Assembly: GCF_900176145.1 (NCBI RefSeq)
Contig: NZ_FWWY01000001.1
Coordinates: 2,180,293-2,244,292 of the forward strand
Reading direction: 5' to 3'
DNA: 64,000 nt
Source: Sulfobacillus thermosulfidooxidans DSM 9293
GTDB lineage: Bacteria > Bacillota > Sulfobacillia > Sulfobacillales > Sulfobacillaceae
This document shows, one piece after another, positions 35,325 through 44,717 of the stretch; positions within the stretch are counted from its first letter, which is position 1, and the number at the start of each line of letters is the position of its first letter. The position numbers were made by a program, and so were the translations under genes. The notes under the pieces were generated by a model. It was not told where the DNA came from and did no database searches. It was given only the letters and a program-made list of their open reading frames with translations.

Positions 35325-37220
35325 ATGATTACAGTCTTTCCCGATCCGTATCCGGATGAATTGCTTTATAGCGTGTGTGCCAGATATCAGGAACGGATGA
35401 TGTGGGGCAATCAGAAAACGACACTGGAAGACTTGTTCGGAAGCAACACGGTAGTGGCGGTTGTGGATTTACCTGGGCACGTGGACGCCTTAATAAGCCA
35501 TTTGCCGGCAGGCCATCGGTACTCATCCGACGAAATCATCGATCGTCACACCTTGCTCCCCTATTTTTCTCCATTTCTTGCGGCAAGCCAACTGGAAGGG
35601 GTCCGCCTTGCCATGAGACGTGGGTCGGGATCGGGGATTTCCGGACGTGCCGGCATCATGGCATCAACCGTCAAGACGCCGCAAGTGTTACAGTACTGTC
35701 CACAATGCGTGGAAGCAGACCGCACGGCCTATGGAGAGGCCTATTGGCATCGGGTGCACCAACTCCCTGGTTTGACCGTGTGCCCCCATCATTCCGGGAC
35801 GTCGATCTACCCGAGTCAGGTGGCCATTCATAGTTCGGGGAGACGTCAGGGCTTTGATATCTTGGAGGCGACGACACCAGAGGCATATAAGGAACCTGTA
35901 TTATACCCTGGTGCCAATGCCCAACCCGATCTGAATACCTTTGTCGCCCACCAAAGTTGGGGTTTGCTTTCGCAATCTCGCGTGGCGGTAGGGTTGGATG
36001 CGTTAAGACAGCGCTACATGGAACAGTTGCAGAACCGGGATCTGGCGAACACGAACGGTCGGATTCGGGCACGGGAATTTGTGCAACAATTTGAGCAGTT
36101 TTATGGCCGCGATTGGCTGCGAGCGATGGGTTGCGGGCTAACCGAGGACGGTGAGCAAGCGTGGGTCTTACGAATGGTCCGCCATCCCAAAGGTTCCCAA
36201 CATCCCTTCAAGCATCTGTTGTTGACGCATTTTCTCGGGATGACGATGGACGCGTTATTGGAACCTAAAAGGCCTTCCCTCCGCCTTAATCGGCTCTGGC
36301 CGTGTCTTAATCGAGTAGCCGTCCATTATGGGCAACCTCTAATATCGGAGGCACAAACCCAGCTTCGACAGACAAGTGGTGGGAAGGTAGGTGTTTTCAC
36401 CTGTTCGTGTGGCTTTAGTTACCGTTGCGCGATCGGTGAAGATCCGTATCTTGAGGCGAAGGTCGTCCAATTTGGCCCTATTTGGGAAGCAAAACTTAAA
36501 AAGCTGAGCGAGGACGCGACGGTGTCCCTTCGCGGGGCGGCGCGGATTTTAGGCGTGGATCCCGCGACAGTGAAATATCACGCCACCCGATTGCAGCTGG
36601 GAAGATGGCAACGACCTCTCTCTCCCGGTAAGACTCCTCAGCAAGGTTCGATCGAAGATTACCGCCAACATTGGCTTGATGTGCAAGCACAGTATCCGGA
36701 GATGGGACGTACTGCACTTCGTCAGATGGCGCCGGCGGTTTGGTCGTGGCTGTACTGCCATGATCGGGAATGGCTCATGGCTCATCAGCCCTCTGCCGCA
36801 CCAACACTGCGGCCTGAACGGATAAGCCGTGTGGACTGGACTCAGAGAGACCGTGACTGCGCTGCCCAAGTTCCTGCCATTGTCACCCGTTTGAAGCAAC
36901 AAGAAGACCCCATCGTCCGTGTGACGGCCAAAGCCATCTTTCGGGAATTGGGTCACAGCAGTTGGCTTGAGCGCCATCACGACAAACTTCCTCTCACCAT
37001 CCAAACCATTGCCGAAGTGGTGGAGGATCGGATCGCGTTTGCCTTGCGACGTTTAGATATAGTGGCGACGGATTTTTGGCGCACAGGCCGCACACCGAAC
37101 CCATGGGAGCTACTACGTTCGGCGGGAATCCGAACTGACTTGGCCCGCCTTTCAGAAATCCAAAATACAGCAGCTCGGCTTTGTGACCCAGTGGTCGCGA
37201 TCACTTATGCCGACTCGTAG
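35325..37220 (+). CDS. tnsD: TniQ/TnsD-family target selection protein
   Basis: 631 residues, longer than Tn7 TnsD (508). The N terminus (FPDPYPDELLYSVCARY) is the TniQ domain, followed by a zinc-binding block with YCPQCVEADRTAYGEAYWHR and LTVCPHH near residues 124-160. The long C-terminal part has several helix-turn-helix-like segments (DATVSLRGAARILGVDPATV). TnsD directs insertion to the 3' end of glmS, and the element sits exactly there, which supports the assignment over a generic TniQ. A second cysteine pair FTCSCGFSYRC lies near residue 355. Confidence 0.88.
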   Translation: MITVFPDPYPDELLYSVCARYQERMMWGNQKTTLEDLFGSNTVVAVVDLPGHVDALISHLPAGHRYSSDEIIDRHTLLPYFSPFLAASQLEGVRLAMRRGSGSGISGRAGIMASTVKTPQVLQYCPQCVEADRTAYGEAYWHRVHQLPGLTVCPHHSGTSIYPSQVAIHSSGRRQGFDILEATTPEAYKEPVLYPGANAQPDLNTFVAHQSWGLLSQSRVAVGLDALRQRYMEQLQNRDLANTNGRIRAREFVQQFEQFYGRDWLRAMGCGLTEDGEQAWVLRMVRHPKGSQHPFKHLLLTHFLGMTMDALLEPKRPSLRLNRLWPCLNRVAVHYGQPLISEAQTQLRQTSGGKVGVFTCSCGFSYRCAIGEDPYLEAKVVQFGPIWEAKLKKLSEDATVSLRGAARILGVDPATVKYHATRLQLGRWQRPLSPGKTPQQGSIEDYRQHWLDVQAQYPEMGRTALRQMAPAVWSWLYCHDREWLMAHQPSAAPTLRPERISRVDWTQRDRDCAAQVPAIVTRLKQQEDPIVRVTAKAIFRELGHSSWLERHHDKLPLTIQTIAEVVEDRIAFALRRLDIVATDFWRTGRTPNPWELLRSAGIRTDLARLSEIQNTAARLCDPVVAITYADS

Positions 37221-38766
37221 GATTCATTGGAGTCCCTGGCCATTTGCCCCCAATCAAGTGGTCACCCTTTATTGGATTCGTTCGCCCCAGCGCGACCCCG
37301 TGAGTGGTCAATGGATGACGACGGCTGTCTTTCAGGATGATGCCCAACGCCTCCACGAGGTGTCGGTTCCCTGGGGCTTTTTGCCTTGGCTCAAGCTCGG
37401 GCGCTTATATCGCAACGGGGTCCCGGTGCGGGATGCATCGCAAGGGTGCCTCATCGCGATAGACGACTTGGATCAATGGGATGTTCAAATAGCGGAAGCC
37501 GGCCAGGTCATTCCCCGAACGGGGTATCCGCTTCGAACGGCGATGAATTTGGCCGAGTTCTGTTGGGTGTATTCTCGTGGGGCACGGACGGTCGTGGTGC
37601 CCCAATTCGAAGCCGTTCGGTCCGTGGTGGCTCCCACGCGATTTCTCGCCTTGGGATGTCTGCAACCATCGTTTCTTGATACCATCGTGCGAGATTACGA
37701 CATCAAAGGGGACATCCTGTACATGGAGTTCAGTAAGGATATGCCGGTTCGGCTGCTCACGCGAGCCACGGTGTTGCAGTTAGCTCATCTTTTGCTGGAT
37801 CCGTCACTTCGCCGATGTTGGGATGCCTTATACCCGTATCAGCGACGTATAGACTCGGGCCGCATGGCATGTCCTCCCCCTGATGTACGAAACTTGGTCG
37901 TTCGGGGTCAACCGATGCTGGCAGCTACCCTATTGGTCTATGAAGTTCTTGAGGCCAAGTTGTACCCCTTGCCGGTTCACCAGGTACTTTGGCGCCATCC
38001 CCAAAGCGAGCTTGAGCCAGAGTGGAATGAGACCAAAATCCGGTGGCACCGTGTGGATGCGGCCGGAAAAGATCTGGCGCTCGACAAACGGGTTGCCGCA
38101 ACTGGTTCTGGGTCAATTCTGGTTGATGGCATGGGGGCCATCCGTGATACTCATAGGATTCAAGTCCGGCGGTGGGCGGTGGAGAGTCGTAGGACGCGAA
38201 ATTGGCGTGTGTTGACGAAAGAACGGACAGAGTTCAGGGTGAGTGGCGCTGATGTGGGTTCCGGGGCCAAGAGGCAGTCCGTTGACGTCACCTTGGAGAG
38301 TCCACAGGGGGAGTTGTTGCAGAGGGATAGCGACGACGGGCTTAACGACTTTTGGCCGGCGATCCAATGGATGAAGCAGGACGCTCAAGGGTATGTTGCC
38401 GTCCATGTTTTTGATAGCCTCGGTGAGCAGGGGTTTTGGACGGTCGACGGGAAGCCTCGACGAGTGGCTATGGTGCGTGTGGTATTACCATCCGGGGATG
38501 AAGCCACTATTCTCGAATTTGCTCGACCAGACAAATATCCCATTTCGACGCTCATTGTGGCCAATATTCTCGATCAGGACGAGATTAAAACATTGCTGCC
38601 CTCTCTTTTGTTCCGTGAGGGCGGGTGGAATGGCTCCGCTTTAGATCGGCAATGGGGCTCCCACTATCATCTTCTTCGCCATCTGTCTCGTCCTCCACGA
38701 CGGTGGGCCGCCTTGCTGACGGACTGGGCACGGATCATGTGGGGAACCCGTTCCAACATGGTGTAA
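37207..38766 (+). CDS. tnsE: TnsE-like target selector
   Basis: About 519 residues (527 from an upstream GTG at 37183), compared with 538 for Tn7 TnsE. TnsE steers transposition to discontinuously replicating DNA such as conjugating plasmids, by contact with the sliding clamp. The C-terminal domain pattern GKPRRVAMVRVVLPSG, ATILEFARPDKYPISTLI and the LLPSLLFREGGWN block match what I know of TnsE. There is no strong ribosome-binding sequence at either start and the gene overlaps tnsD, suggesting coupling. Fifth tns gene in Tn7 order, which supports the assignment. Confidence 0.82.
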   Translation: MPTRRIHWSPWPFAPNQVVTLYWIRSPQRDPVSGQWMTTAVFQDDAQRLHEVSVPWGFLPWLKLGRLYRNGVPVRDASQGCLIAIDDLDQWDVQIAEAGQVIPRTGYPLRTAMNLAEFCWVYSRGARTVVVPQFEAVRSVVAPTRFLALGCLQPSFLDTIVRDYDIKGDILYMEFSKDMPVRLLTRATVLQLAHLLLDPSLRRCWDALYPYQRRIDSGRMACPPPDVRNLVVRGQPMLAATLLVYEVLEAKLYPLPVHQVLWRHPQSELEPEWNETKIRWHRVDAAGKDLALDKRVAATGSGSILVDGMGAIRDTHRIQVRRWAVESRRTRNWRVLTKERTEFRVSGADVGSGAKRQSVDVTLESPQGELLQRDSDDGLNDFWPAIQWMKQDAQGYVAVHVFDSLGEQGFWTVDGKPRRVAMVRVVLPSGDEATILEFARPDKYPISTLIVANILDQDEIKTLLPSLLFREGGWNGSALDRQWGSHYHLLRHLSRPPRRWAALLTDWARIMWGTRSNMV

Positions 38767-39285
38767 TGTCGATGATTCAGGTGCAATACTGTCTTCATGT
38801 TTTCTTACATAAGCGATCGAGGGTAGATCAGCTATAGACTGATGCAGGAGAGTTGTCAAGGAGCGTGTTATGCCTGCTTATACGGAACACCCATGACAGG
38901 GTCAGGTCATATCAAAGGACATGACCAGTCGAGGAATGGATGTTATCCCATCAGGATTTCCACACGGTATTCCGGCGAATCGGGGGATTTCTCAAAAGGT
39001 CGAGAAAGGTAATTTCACACCAAAATCCGGATACCCCAAAAATCATAGCATGGGTGGCGAACAAAACGTCCGGTGTGACACTACGGTTACAGGATTGTTA
39101 TTGACGTGATACATTGCCTGACTACGATTAACCAGGATAATCGTAGTCAGGGTGGCAACAGACGGCGATCTTATCGCATGGCTCCTGGTCTGGCGATAGC
39201 ATGGGGGCTATCACTGGCGGGAGGCGTGATGGGATCGAGGGGTGTCCGCTAGGCGACCTCGGGGATAATCATCGTAGGGGAGGAT
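38767..39285 (+). other. Gene-free stretch between tnsE and the broken redoxin
   Basis: 519 bases without a credible gene. It holds a 14-bp inverted repeat at 39117-39151 and a TTGACG at 39101-39106. A TGTGAC-N5-GGTTAC arrangement at about 39076-39092 weakly resembles the 11-bp-phased boxes near 47.4-48.8 kb. Confidence 0.5.
39117..39151 (+). repeat. Perfect 14-bp inverted repeat upstream of the redoxin remnant
   Basis: CCTGACTACGATTA and its reverse complement TAATCGTAGTCAGG flank a seven-base centre. No T-run follows, so it is more likely an operator or a recombination site than a terminator. A TTGACG begins 16 bases before it. Which protein might bind is unknown. Confidence 0.6.
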
Positions 39286-39747
39286 GTGGCGCCGTTGAAA
39301 CCGTCTCGGAGCCTGGTGGGAATTCTTTTGGGCCTACTCAGTCTGGTGGCCGTGTGGGGGATCGGACGATGGCCTCCCGGGTTCCCGCGTTTCGCGCCCT
39401 CTCATCATTGGGGCCGGTACGGTTTCCGCCTGTGGGGTACGTTAGTGTGGTCTTTTTCTACGAGGCCGATACGTGATCGGCCTGTCTTCAGCAACTGGTC
39501 GAGTTGCAACAGGCACAGGCGCTGTTTCAGTCGCGAGGAGTGAAGACGTATGCCATTTCCGGTAGCTCCCTGCCACACGACAAGATTCTGGCCCGGCAAC
39601 GGCACCTCACCATTCCCCATGGACACCCATGCGATCTTTATCATCAATCCTCGGGGGACGATTGTGTTTGCCATGGTGTCCCCGCATACCATGCACATTG
39701 CGATGACGCGCGTGATTGCCGCCGTCCGGCGGGCACTGACTCCGTGA
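39286..39747 (+). pseudogene. Redoxin (AhpC/TSA-like) with membrane anchor, broken in three places
   Basis: The N terminus in frame 1 (LVGILLGLLSLVAVWGIG) is a signal anchor. The core in frame 3 reads VSVVFFYEADT, then a TGA, then SACLQQLVELQQAQ and SRGVKTYAIS. The C terminus, back in frame 1 from about 39615, reads THAIFIINPRGTIVFAM and SPHTMHIAMTRVIAAV. Together these form a thiol-dependent redoxin fold, but with a frame change near 39435, another near 39615 where some 25-40 family residues seem to be missing, and the TGA at the redox site. Best called a pseudogene; see the finding on the TGA. AGGGGAGG lies just upstream of the GTG. Confidence 0.6.
39474..39513 (+). other. In-frame TGA at the redox motif followed by a SECIS-like hairpin
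   Basis: TGA at 39474-39476 takes the place of the first residue of a C-x-x-C motif (stop-S-A-C). Downstream, CCTGT (39481-39485) pairs with ACAGG (39509-39513), and GCAACT (39491-39496) pairs with AGTTGC (39502-39507). The apical loop GGTCG begins 20 bases after the TGA. Bacterial SECIS elements have this size, place and GGU-type loop. Read directly from sequence; function untested and the gene is otherwise broken. Confidence 0.35.
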
Positions 39748-39932: not shown

Positions 39933-41075
39933 ATGTCATTAGCGTCCATGATTCAACCAGAGGTCGTGGCACAATTTTATCATGCCGTGCTCACCGTGGT
40001 CGTAGTGCTGATCACCATCGGACTGGCGGTGGTGCTGATCCGTTGGGTTTGGCGGCTCATTGCGGAATCTGAATCGCCGTCCGTGTCGCGGGAGGACCTC
40101 TGCGATCGGGCGCCGAAAATATGGGGAAAAGAGGGGCTCTGGCGGGCACTGGGGGCTTTGTGGGTGTTGGACGGCCTCTTACAACTACAGCCGGCTATGC
40201 CCAATTACGCCTTTTTAGAAATGGTGATCGCGCCCAATTTGTTGGGACAGCCAGGCTGGGTGGTACGTGTGATGGGGTGGGGGATTCAAGCCTGGTCGAA
40301 TGCGCCGATCACGGCCGACGTGGTCGCGGTGTTTGTGCAACTCGGCATAGGACTAGCCTTGTTAGCAGGTCGTTGGCGCCCCTGGGGGCGCTGGGCCCTG
40401 TGGACATCCCTGTTTTGGGGTCTATTCGTCTGGATTTTAGGGGAAGGGATGGGCGGCATTCTGACCGGCCAGGCGTCCCTGGTCATCGGAGATCCCGGAT
40501 CGGTCCTCTTCTATATGGCGAGCGCCGGATTGCTCCTCCTGCCGGATGCGATGTGGTTAGCCGGACAGGTGCGCCGTGGGGTGCGATGGGGCGTCGTGGG
40601 ACTCTGGCTCTGGGGGGCTCTGGTGCAGGCGTGGCCGGGGGCGGGATTTTGGTCGGGACCCGCCCTCGGAACTCTCTTCCAAAATGCTGCCCAAAATGCG
40701 CAACCGCTCTGGCTGTCAGGGCCAATTTACGCCACCGCCCACTGGGTCACGCACCACGGTCTGGTGGCCAATGGCGTCATCGTGGGAATGATGAGTCTCC
40801 TCGCGCTTTTGTGGGCATGGCGACCCTATGGCCGTGGCACGATGGCGGTCACCATGGGGTGGCTCGGGGTGTTATGGTGGCTGGGGCAGGATTTTGGCGT
40901 CCTCGGGGGCGTGGGCACCGACCCGAATACCGCCCCCGTCTTCGCGCTACTGTTGGGGACGGCGGCGTGGAGTCAAAAACCCCTTGCCGATGTTCCTGCC
41001 CTTCGGTTCATTCCCTGGTTTCGTGCTAAGCGGGGTGCCGAGACATTGTCTGTCGAGCGAGGACGACGCGTGTGA
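39933..41075 (+). CDS. Polytopic membrane protein, unknown function
   Basis: 380 residues with roughly nine predicted helices, including about 16-40, 72-90, 110-125, 127-165, 180-197, 205-222, 250-290, 305-322 and 330-345. It has an excellent ribosome-binding sequence, TAAGGAGGTGAG, before the ATG. Tryptophan- and glycine-rich composition, the segment ILTGQASLVIGDPGSVLFY, and few charged residues in the core are the main features. I do not recognise a characterised family. It lies between a broken redoxin and a broken CsoR in the copper section and is itself intact. Confidence 0.7.
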   Translation: MSLASMIQPEVVAQFYHAVLTVVVVLITIGLAVVLIRWVWRLIAESESPSVSREDLCDRAPKIWGKEGLWRALGALWVLDGLLQLQPAMPNYAFLEMVIAPNLLGQPGWVVRVMGWGIQAWSNAPITADVVAVFVQLGIGLALLAGRWRPWGRWALWTSLFWGLFVWILGEGMGGILTGQASLVIGDPGSVLFYMASAGLLLLPDAMWLAGQVRRGVRWGVVGLWLWGALVQAWPGAGFWSGPALGTLFQNAAQNAQPLWLSGPIYATAHWVTHHGLVANGVIVGMMSLLALLWAWRPYGRGTMAVTMGWLGVLWWLGQDFGVLGGVGTDPNTAPVFALLLGTAAWSQKPLADVPALRFIPWFRAKRGAETLSVERGRRV

Positions 41076-41935: not shown

Positions 41936-42112
41936 ATGGAGCACGATGTGGTGTGTCAGATGGCCGTGGATCCGATCACGGCCATGGCACGGGACTATCA
42001 GGGTCAAACGTACTATTTCTGTTGCGAAGGCTGTGCCCGAGCCTTCCTGGCGGATCCCGGCCCCTATCCCAAGCATAACACGCCCCAAAAGCCCGTTAGG
42101 CAGCGCGCATAA
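41936..42112 (+). CDS. Small YHS-domain protein (58 residues)
   Basis: The short ORF reads MEHDVVCQMAVDPITAMAR, then YQGQTYYFCCEGCARAFLAD and ends PKHNTPQKPVRQRA. CQMAVDP plus the FCCEGCARAFLADP block is the YHS/TRASH-type metal-binding domain, with cysteines at about residues 7, 29, 30 and 33. Such domains occur in copper-handling proteins, often fused to the N terminus of CopA; here it is a separate protein just before copA. GAGGAGAGGAT lies before the ATG. It is probably a Cu chaperone or sensor. Confidence 0.8.
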   Translation: MEHDVVCQMAVDPITAMARDYQGQTYYFCCEGCARAFLADPGPYPKHNTPQKPVRQRA

Positions 42113-42246
42113 TTACCTGAACCAGGACGAGGATTTGAAAGCCATAAACACTTGGATCCGCATTTCAAGTTAATCAAGTTATTTTTGCGCGATGCCTTAG
42201 GCCGCGTGGCGGGAAGTGGGATGGGAATACGGGAGGGGGATAGACA

Positions 42247-44717
42247 ATGGCCACAGACACTGTAGAGCACGGAAACGGAGTGAGCGCACCCTCGGGGTCG
42301 GCCGCAGGCGGCGTGACGCTGGAAATCGGGGGAATGACGTGTGCCACGTGTGCCCTCAGTATTGAAAAGACGTTGAAGCAACAGCCGGGTGTCACCAAGG
42401 CCCAGGTGAATCTGGCGCTGGAACGCGCGGATATCCGATTTGACGCCGGTCAAGTGGCCCTGCCCGAACTTATGCAAGCCGTGACGCAACTGGGCTACAC
42501 GGTCCGCCACGATACGGTGACGCTATGGGTCCCAGGCATCGATGAGGAGCCCCGCCGTCAACGGGTCGAATCGATGCTGGAGGCTCTGGACGGGGTGGCA
42601 AACGTGCGGGCCAATATGACCACGGGATCCGTCACCGTAGACTTGGTGCGCGGCGTGGGTCGCCTGGATGCGGTGCAAGCGGCCTTGCGCCAGGGAGGCT
42701 TTGACGCGGAAGTCGCGCCCGCCGTCTCCTCGTCTGATCCGCGTCGGGCGGAACTCGCCCGCGCCCGAAGAAATTTCGGGATGGCCCTGATCTTTACCCT
42801 CCCCGTCTGGGTGGCTATGGTGCACACGCTGCTTGGGATTGGCCCCACATGGCTCGCGATGCCGATTGTGGTGGCGCTGAGCGCCACCGTCGTCCAATGG
42901 GGCCCCGGCATGGGCTTTACGCGGCGGGCCTGGATGAACCTGCGTCATCGCAATGCCAATATGGATGTGTTGGTGGCGCTGGGCACACTGGACGCCTGGG
43001 GACTTTCAGTCTATGACTGGGGCGTTGGCGGGCGATTGTATTTTGACGTATCGGCCACGGTTATCACGCTGATTATCCTGGGCAAATATTTTGAGGCCCT
43101 GGCCAAAGGCCGCACGGGCGCGGCCATTGCCGAATTATTAGCGTTGCAGCCCCACGAGGCCCGGCGCAGAACCCCCGTGGGGGACTGGGAGACGGTGACG
43201 ACGGACAGCGTGCAAGCGGGAGATCAGATCCAAGTTCGGGCCGGGGATCGAATTCCGGTGGACGGGGTGAGGTAGTGGAAGGTATCGGGGCAGTTGATGA
43301 AGCCATGTTGACCGGAGAGCCGATGCCCCAAGAGAAACACCCAGGGAGCACCGTGTCGGCGGGAACCGTCAACGGGTCGACGACGCTCATCATCGAAGCG
43401 ACGCGGGTAGGGCACGACACCACCTTGGCACACATTGTGCGCACCGTTGAGGAGGCGCAGGCGACGAAAGCCCCTGTGCAACGATTCGCCGACCGCGTCG
43501 CCAGTGTTTTTGTGCCCATTGTGATGGGCATTGCGCTGATCACCCTCGGAGCGTGGGGATTGGGCACCGGCGATTGGCGCCATGCCATTTTGGCGGCGGT
43601 CGCCGTGTTGGTGGTCGCCTGTCCTTGTGCCTTGGGATTAGCCACTCCCACCGCTGTCATGGTGGGCTCTGGCGTCGGGGCCAAACGGGGCATCTTATAT
43701 CGGAGTGGGGAGGCCCTGGAAAAGGTGTCGGGGGTGACCTTGGTCGCGATGGATAAGACCGGCACCTTAACGGCAGGGCGTCCTCGCGTGCAGGCAATGC
43801 GGGCGACCGAAGATGTCGCAGACGCCGAGGTCTTGGGGTGGGCAGCGGCCTTAGAACAGGAGTCGAGTCATCCTTTGGCGAGGGCCATCGTGGGGGCGAC
43901 TACCGAGCAGGGGGTTCGCGTACCCCCAGCGGAGGATGTGTATACCGAGGCAGGCCAAGGGGTGGTCGGCACGGTAAACGGGGCCGAGGTCTTGGTCGGG
44001 AATGCTGCTCTCCTCCACGCCTATGGGGTGTCCTTGCCGCCAGACCCGGAGGAGACATGGACCCGATGGCAACAAGAGGGGGCGACCGTGGTGTGGGTGG
44101 CGCGGGACGGCCAGTGGGTGGGCACGCTGGCGGTGGCCGATTTTGTCCGCGATGACGCGGTAGACCTCATCCAGGCTCTGCATCGCCGCAAGATTCAGGT
44201 GGCCATGCTGACGGGAGACCAAACCCGGACGGCCGAGGCCGTTGGTCACAAGCTGGGCGTGGATCGGATTTTTGCCGAATTGATGCCGCAGGACAAAGCA
44301 CGGGTGATCGAACAATTGCGTCACGAAGGCTACCATGTGCTCATGGTCGGGGATGGGATCAACGATGCCCCGGCATTGGTCGCGGCGGATGTCGGGATGG
44401 CCGTCGGTTCGGGGACCGATGTCGCCATTGAGGCGGCCGACATCACCTTGATGGCGCCCGAAATTTCGGGAATCCTGCGGGCGCTGACAATCGGCAGAAA
44501 GACGCTCGGCAAGATTCGGCAAAATCTGTTTTGGGCCATGATTTACAACGTGATTCTGATCCCCCTGGCGGCGTTGGGTTTCCTGTCCCCCATGATTGCG
44601 GGGGCCGCGATGGCCTTCAGTTCGGTGTCGGTGGTCACCAACTCGTTGTTGCTACGCGGCATGCGCCTGCCCACCGGCGAGGCGCAGATCCCCCAGCCGG
44701 TGGGACAACACATCTGA
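42247..44717 (+). pseudogene. copA: Cu(I)-transporting P1B-type ATPase CopA, frameshifted into two parts
   Basis: Part 1 (42247-43275) has an N-terminal HMA domain with GGMTCATCALSIEK (cysteines 32 and 35), a second HMA-like region without cysteines, and the first membrane helices. It ends at RAGDRIPVDGVR. Part 2, in the -1 frame, continues VVEGIGAVDEAMLTGEP and holds VVACPCALGLATPTA, MDKTGTLTAGRP, MLTGDQTRTAEAVG and VGDGINDAPALVA, then YNVILIPLAALGF and AFSSVSVVTNSLLLR, the TM7/TM8 signature of Cu(I) pumps. One base appears deleted at about 43268-43274, inside the actuator domain. No full-length pump can be made without frame correction. Confidence 0.88.

Follow-up and report, generated by a model that had tools for sequence, protein, structure and literature searches.

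The sequence analysed here is a 64,000-nucleotide stretch of the genome of Sulfobacillus thermosulfidooxidans DSM 9293 (the window, to which all unlabelled coordinates refer; genomes and loci used for comparison carry G and L numbers). It contains an AhpC/TSA-type redoxin gene in three pieces, with an in-frame TGA at 39474-39476 on the forward strand. Reading across this codon gives FFYEADT-*-SACLQQLVELQQAQALFQSRGVKTYAISGSS, i.e., the TGA is directly preceded by FFYEADT and followed by SACLQQLVELQQ, and it occupies the first position of the redoxin C/U-x-x-C motif, where the original prediction had placed it. When the three pieces were joined, the reading matched the AhpC-TSA family of Pfam (PF00578) with an E value of 3.2e-7 and a score of 30.8 bits, versus a cut-off of 26. 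The features of the locus are as follows:

39286-39377, forward strand: piece encoding the redoxin N-terminus, no longer in frame with what follows; it starts at GTG 39286 or TTG 39295, downstream of GGGGAGG, and carries the membrane anchor KPSRSLVGILLGLLSLVAVWGIGRW
39377-39378, no strand: junction of a 46-nt deletion, i.e., the first frame change, placed by alignment with L019; the point is ambiguous by a few bases
39378-39617, forward strand: main part of the redoxin, read in the frame of the TGA as SRVPAFRALSSLGPVRFPPVGYVSVVFFYEADT-U-SACLQQLVELQQAQALFQSRGVKTYAISGSSLPHDKILARQRHLTIP, identified from PF00578 on the joined reading and from the orthologues
39474-39476, forward strand: predicted selenocysteine (Sec) codon TGA, position 1 of U-x-x-C; TGA in 13 orthologous loci and TGC in one homologue
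39480-39514, forward strand: SECIS-type hairpin, from the bSECIS criteria (PMC13188914, Figure 2) and comparison across copies
39615-39619, no strand: second lesion, about 65-70 nt lost with a frame change, relative to the intact locus L020 and orthologues from the same order
39619-39747, forward strand: C-terminal piece MDTHAIFIINPRGTIVFAMVSPHTMHIAMTRVIAAVRRALTP, in the same frame as the N-terminal piece and ending at a TGA stop

The N-terminal piece was 94% identical in protein sequence to that of S. thermotolerans Kr1 (G004, CP019454.1), and could also be aligned with the intact copy in G009 (L019). The C-terminal piece aligned with MDAHAIIVVNAQGRI...DMHVP of L020. A search of the window genome found no second copy of the redoxin gene.

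Downstream of the TGA, both stems of the two-part hairpin in the original prediction were present, at the spacing proposed. An apical stem of 6 bp, formed by GCAACT (39491-39496) and AGTTGC (39502-39507), encloses a GGTCG loop (39497-39501) that begins 20 nt after the TGA; the lower stem pairs GCCTGT with ACAGGC (39480-39485/39509-39514). The hairpin had a minimum free energy (MFE) of -15.9 kcal/mol; measured against 200 shuffled sequences, of which 3 folded equally well, its z score was -2.36. The SECIS element of E. coli fdhF is likewise a small stem-loop with a GGUC-type loop about 20 nt after the UGA, although its stem sequence differs from that in the window; the fdhF-like GGTC loop is limited to the copies of the window, G004 and G009, other members having CGTG, GGGA or GGTT. 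A two-part SECIS was rejected as the conserved element, the lower stem being confined to the same three copies while the apical stem is general.

The consensus for bacterial SECIS elements specifies a loop of 3-9 nt with G in the first two positions, a stem of 4-16 bp, a spacing of 16-37 nt from the UGA and an MFE of -7.5 or lower (PMC13188914). The window hairpin agrees with all of these, having a loop of 5 nt that begins with G, a stem of 6 bp, a spacing of 20 nt and the MFE given above. However, 6-bp hairpins accepted by comparable rules accompanied 4.3% of the 2047 TGAs in the window (both strands), so that the hairpin by itself is weak evidence, and the case for a Sec codon rests on conservation across genomes.

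The original prediction would have been undermined by a genome lacking the machinery for Sec decoding, but the complete set was found: tRNA-Sec (64.5 bits, anticodon TCA, i.e., UCA), selA (556 bits), selB (358 bits, with the SelB winged-helix domains) and selD (360 bits). Within the order, to which this survey was confined, selA and tRNA-Sec scored above cut-off in 12 of 12 genomes tested. The selD gene (L085:1501-2436) is itself a predicted selenoprotein gene, with TGA at the active-site position (SKSG-U-GCK) and its own stem-loop downstream, TTAGGTCC/GGACCTAA.

When relatives were searched with the joined protein, the best match was interrupted by exactly one stop codon, which was always TGA; such homologues occurred in G004, G009, G031 (S. 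harzensis), G037, G038, G039 and G040. Reading TGA as Sec turned five orthologues into complete proteins, which have a hydrophobic segment at the N-terminus and a redoxin domain, and in which F(F/Y)YE(A/G)(A/D)T is followed by UPAC, UTAC or UGAC; the window sequence adds USAC to these variants. The frame beyond the UGA reaches the full domain in intact orthologues such as L020-L024, and AhpC-TSA scored above its gathering threshold in intact members (96.8 bits for L023, 52.8 bits for L020). In G009 the gene shows no break before the contig runs out. Seven further TGA loci, from Chloroflexota and one unplaced bacterial genome, came from a scan of genome contigs; one of them (L054) is likewise cut by the contig end. 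A single homologue, L055, had Cys (TGC) at the TGA position. No relatives were found in viral contigs, and a search of plasmids gave only distant matches, with less than 60% identity.

The seven added loci, with those of G009, G031 and G037-G040, make up 13 orthologous loci, spread over a dozen bacterial genomes besides that of the window, with TGA at the same codon; within the limits of their contigs, all are otherwise intact. All six apical stem pairs form in 13 of the 13 distinct TGA sequences, and one pair covaries from A-U to G-C with G-U intermediates, whereas pairing fell to 1-47% in a control in which the partners were slid by 1-3 columns. In the Cys homologue, L055, the apical stem is no longer formed. 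Only one of the six pairs varies, and the stem overlaps the codons of a conserved QQLV(Q/E)L motif; the covariation is therefore modest, and the conservation of the stem may come in part from constraint on the protein.

One alternative is that the TGA is merely a decayed cysteine codon, as considered in the original prediction, in a CxxC redoxin gene that is dead, and that the hairpin arose by chance. The two other lesions in the window gene and the frequency of comparable hairpins at window TGAs fit such decay, but a TGA at the same codon in 13 otherwise intact loci, Sec genes in every member of the order tested, and a hairpin conserved with covariation do not; we regard it as very improbable and as refuted by the orthologues. 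The alignment of homologues revealed no random codons at this position, only TGA and the one TGC. Because the TGA is shared among 13 loci, with the stem kept and covarying where TGA is present and lost where it is replaced by TGC, the codon is read here as a Sec codon and not as a decayed Cys codon. At the level of sequence, the covariation, the contrast with the Cys homologue and the Sec machinery are, taken together, sufficient for this reading. In the predicted mechanism, SelB bound to the hairpin 20 nt downstream would deliver Sec-tRNA to the UGA that immediately follows the FFYEA(A/D)T strand, creating a U-x-x-C redox motif. The intact gene would encode a membrane-anchored, probably extracytoplasmic thiol:disulfide oxidoreductase of the AhpC/TSA fold, with its N-terminal segment as the anchor.

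What holds for the codon and its hairpin does not extend to the window gene as a working selenoprotein gene. Both of the frame changes noted in the original prediction are real, but the site of the first, at about 39377, is further upstream than the position of FFYEADT had suggested. Compared with L019 of G009, which reads through in a single frame, the window lacks 46 nt near 39377, so that the membrane anchor and the redoxin body no longer share a frame. At 39615-39619 (about 39617), a segment matching IIQDRTFAIGRDYGVYGGQRMP of S. harzensis is absent and the frame has changed; the size of this second loss is an estimate, because no close intact copy spans the site. The second deletion takes out a conserved segment of the redoxin fold, and with two deletions and frame changes the continuous frame from the UGA to the full domain seen in intact relatives is missing here. 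Sequencing or assembly error was rejected as the source of the frame changes, since both lesions recur in S. thermotolerans Kr1, whose genome was sequenced independently and which has lost 1 nt more. Because this extra loss returns the C-terminal piece to the TGA frame, running to the original C-terminus, a shortened product is conceivable in that species. Between the window and G009, changes by codon position numbered 4/3/6, with no strong third-position excess in these small numbers. With its frame broken and part of its fold gone through two deletions, the window copy is almost certainly a pseudogene.

Might the window gene still yield a functional selenoprotein, e.g., from an internal start at ATG 39369 with programmed frameshifting? 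That ATG lies at the first deletion and opens the TGA frame, and in G004 the frame extends to the original C-terminus. However, such a product would have lost its membrane anchor, together with about 22 residues of the conserved core, the intact relatives need no frameshift, and no frameshift signal was noticed, albeit without a systematic search; we consider a functional product improbable. A different proposal is that the remnant is kept solely for its RNA, with the SECIS hairpin on a short transcript still recruiting SelB. The hairpin sequence is indeed the same in the window, G009 and G004 (with one change in G004, outside the stem), but these copies diverged recently, so that their identity says little. 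To our knowledge there is no precedent for a SECIS remnant retained in this way, and we think the proposal extremely improbable.

The original prediction had stated that selenoprotein redoxins with a U-x-x-C motif are known, and they do form an established, albeit mostly predicted, class. Prx-like thiol:disulfide oxidoreductase selenoproteins (PF00578, with UxxC or UxxU) have been predicted with high confidence (PMC13188914) and appear in a second report (PMC9312934). The present clade shares with them the AhpC/TSA domain, the UxxC motif and a bacterial SECIS inside the coding region, but differs in its N-terminal membrane anchor and FYEA(A/D)T-UxAC signature, and in the broken state of the window copy. 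It was placed with the class by description (a listed example is WP_010940744.1), and none of the NCBIfam models reached its cut-off on intact members. As judged from sequence, the type of protein is known, i.e., a Prx-like UxxC thiol:disulfide oxidoreductase selenoprotein, and the clade is new within it. The literature searched yielded no selenoprotein paper on this clade of redoxins from Sulfobacillus and related bacteria.

The closest solved relatives by sequence are peroxiredoxins of the Bcp/PrxQ type (2ywn, 5enu, 1xvw), which have a TxxC motif. In profile alignments the second Cys of the clade's UxxC falls on the peroxidatic Cys, whereas Sec takes the Thr position to make a UxxC pair. From these positions, the motif merges a peroxiredoxin with a thioredoxin-type pair, which suggests that the intact protein is a thiol:disulfide oxidoreductase or a peroxidase. 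Membrane-anchored oxidoreductases of the ResA/TlpA type also combine an anchor with a CxxC-like motif, and the ResA model matched L023 and L024 with E values of 4e-9 to 5e-13, below its cut-off of 170 bits; the clade, however, is without W-C-x-x-C and has Sec in place of Cys. Many more Bcp-like peroxiredoxin matches with one TGA were seen in the order, e.g., G040:C161:73071-73469, G038:C191:9439-9843 and G011:C1:2861158-2861562. These are possible further Sec peroxiredoxins, but in some, such as L077, the match had merely caught an upstream stop.

Two membrane proteins recur beside the redoxin genes. One, with the motif FAPCC, adjoins the intact genes L044 and L045 and the Cys homologue L055, and the neighbour of L045 weakly matched the DsbD part of TsoB (E = 4e-5). 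The other, sharing WVLDGLLQLQ, is encoded close to L041 and L055, and the window has one as well (39933-41075). Pfam searches with these DsbD-like and DoxX-like neighbours gave nothing relevant even at an E value of 10, so that the two names rest on the weak TsoB/DsbD match and on reading by eye. Both proteins could be electron-supply partners. A tentative reading, to which we give somewhat less than an even chance, is that the intact orthologues of Sulfobacillia and Chloroflexota make up a subfamily, so far uncatalogued, of membrane-anchored UxxC selenoredoxins that, with the DsbD-like and DoxX-like (WVLDGLLQLQP) proteins, form an extracytoplasmic selenium-based reducing pathway linked to metal or thiosulfate chemistry.

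The redoxin remnant lies in a probably mobile metal-resistance island, in which TnsD/TniQ and TnsE-like genes precede it and genes for a YHS protein and a heavy-metal ATPase come after it. Over a stretch of about 8.4 kb that includes the remnant, identity to G004 was 86-99.8% per 500-nt bin, mostly 97-99%, whereas the selA genes of the two genomes were only 70% identical. Since both deletions are shared within this stretch, the gene would appear to have moved between species when already dead, and the simplest reading is that the island crossed species after gene death. We therefore think it very likely that the site holds the remains of a selenoprotein redoxin gene in which the Sec codon and hairpin survive, which became a pseudogene through two deletions, and which was later shared with S. 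thermotolerans on the Tn7-like/copper island. In this Sulfobacillus the codon, hairpin and machinery have outlasted the frame and fold, and the dead gene would have become common to both species via the island.

Loss of selenoprotein genes has been documented in general in Firmicutes (PMC1794560). The present locus offers a clear case of such a gene dying while its Sec codon, its SECIS and the Sec machinery of the host remain, and would also exemplify a dead selenoprotein gene carried between species. If the proposed reducing pathway is real, the window would capture it in the process of disappearing and of travelling onward as a dead passenger. Annotation that reads UGA only as stop would miss the window gene and its intact relatives; once UGA is read as Sec, a clade of selenoprotein redoxins emerges in Sulfobacillus and related bacteria.

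Other observations concern the island itself. At 35325-38766, TnsD/TniQ (PF15978, E = 3e-86) is followed by the TnsE-like gene (PF18623, E = 0.0015), forming part of a Tn7-like element. Between these genes and the redoxin remnant is a 17-nt inverted repeat of 94% identity, CCTGACTACGATTAACC/GGATAATCGTAGTCAGG (39117-39151), possibly an element boundary or a terminator, and the homology of L019 to the window ends there. A 104-nt segment after the YHS gene (42097-42199) was 98% identical to L019:1268-1371, which in G009 is directly upstream of the redoxin gene; from its sequence, it is a putative small mobile or recombining piece. Finally, the frame of the heavy-metal ATPase (42247-43275) ends early, at 342 amino acids, and covers two HMA matches but no more than the start of the E1-E2 ATPase, so this gene may also have been broken by a frame change.
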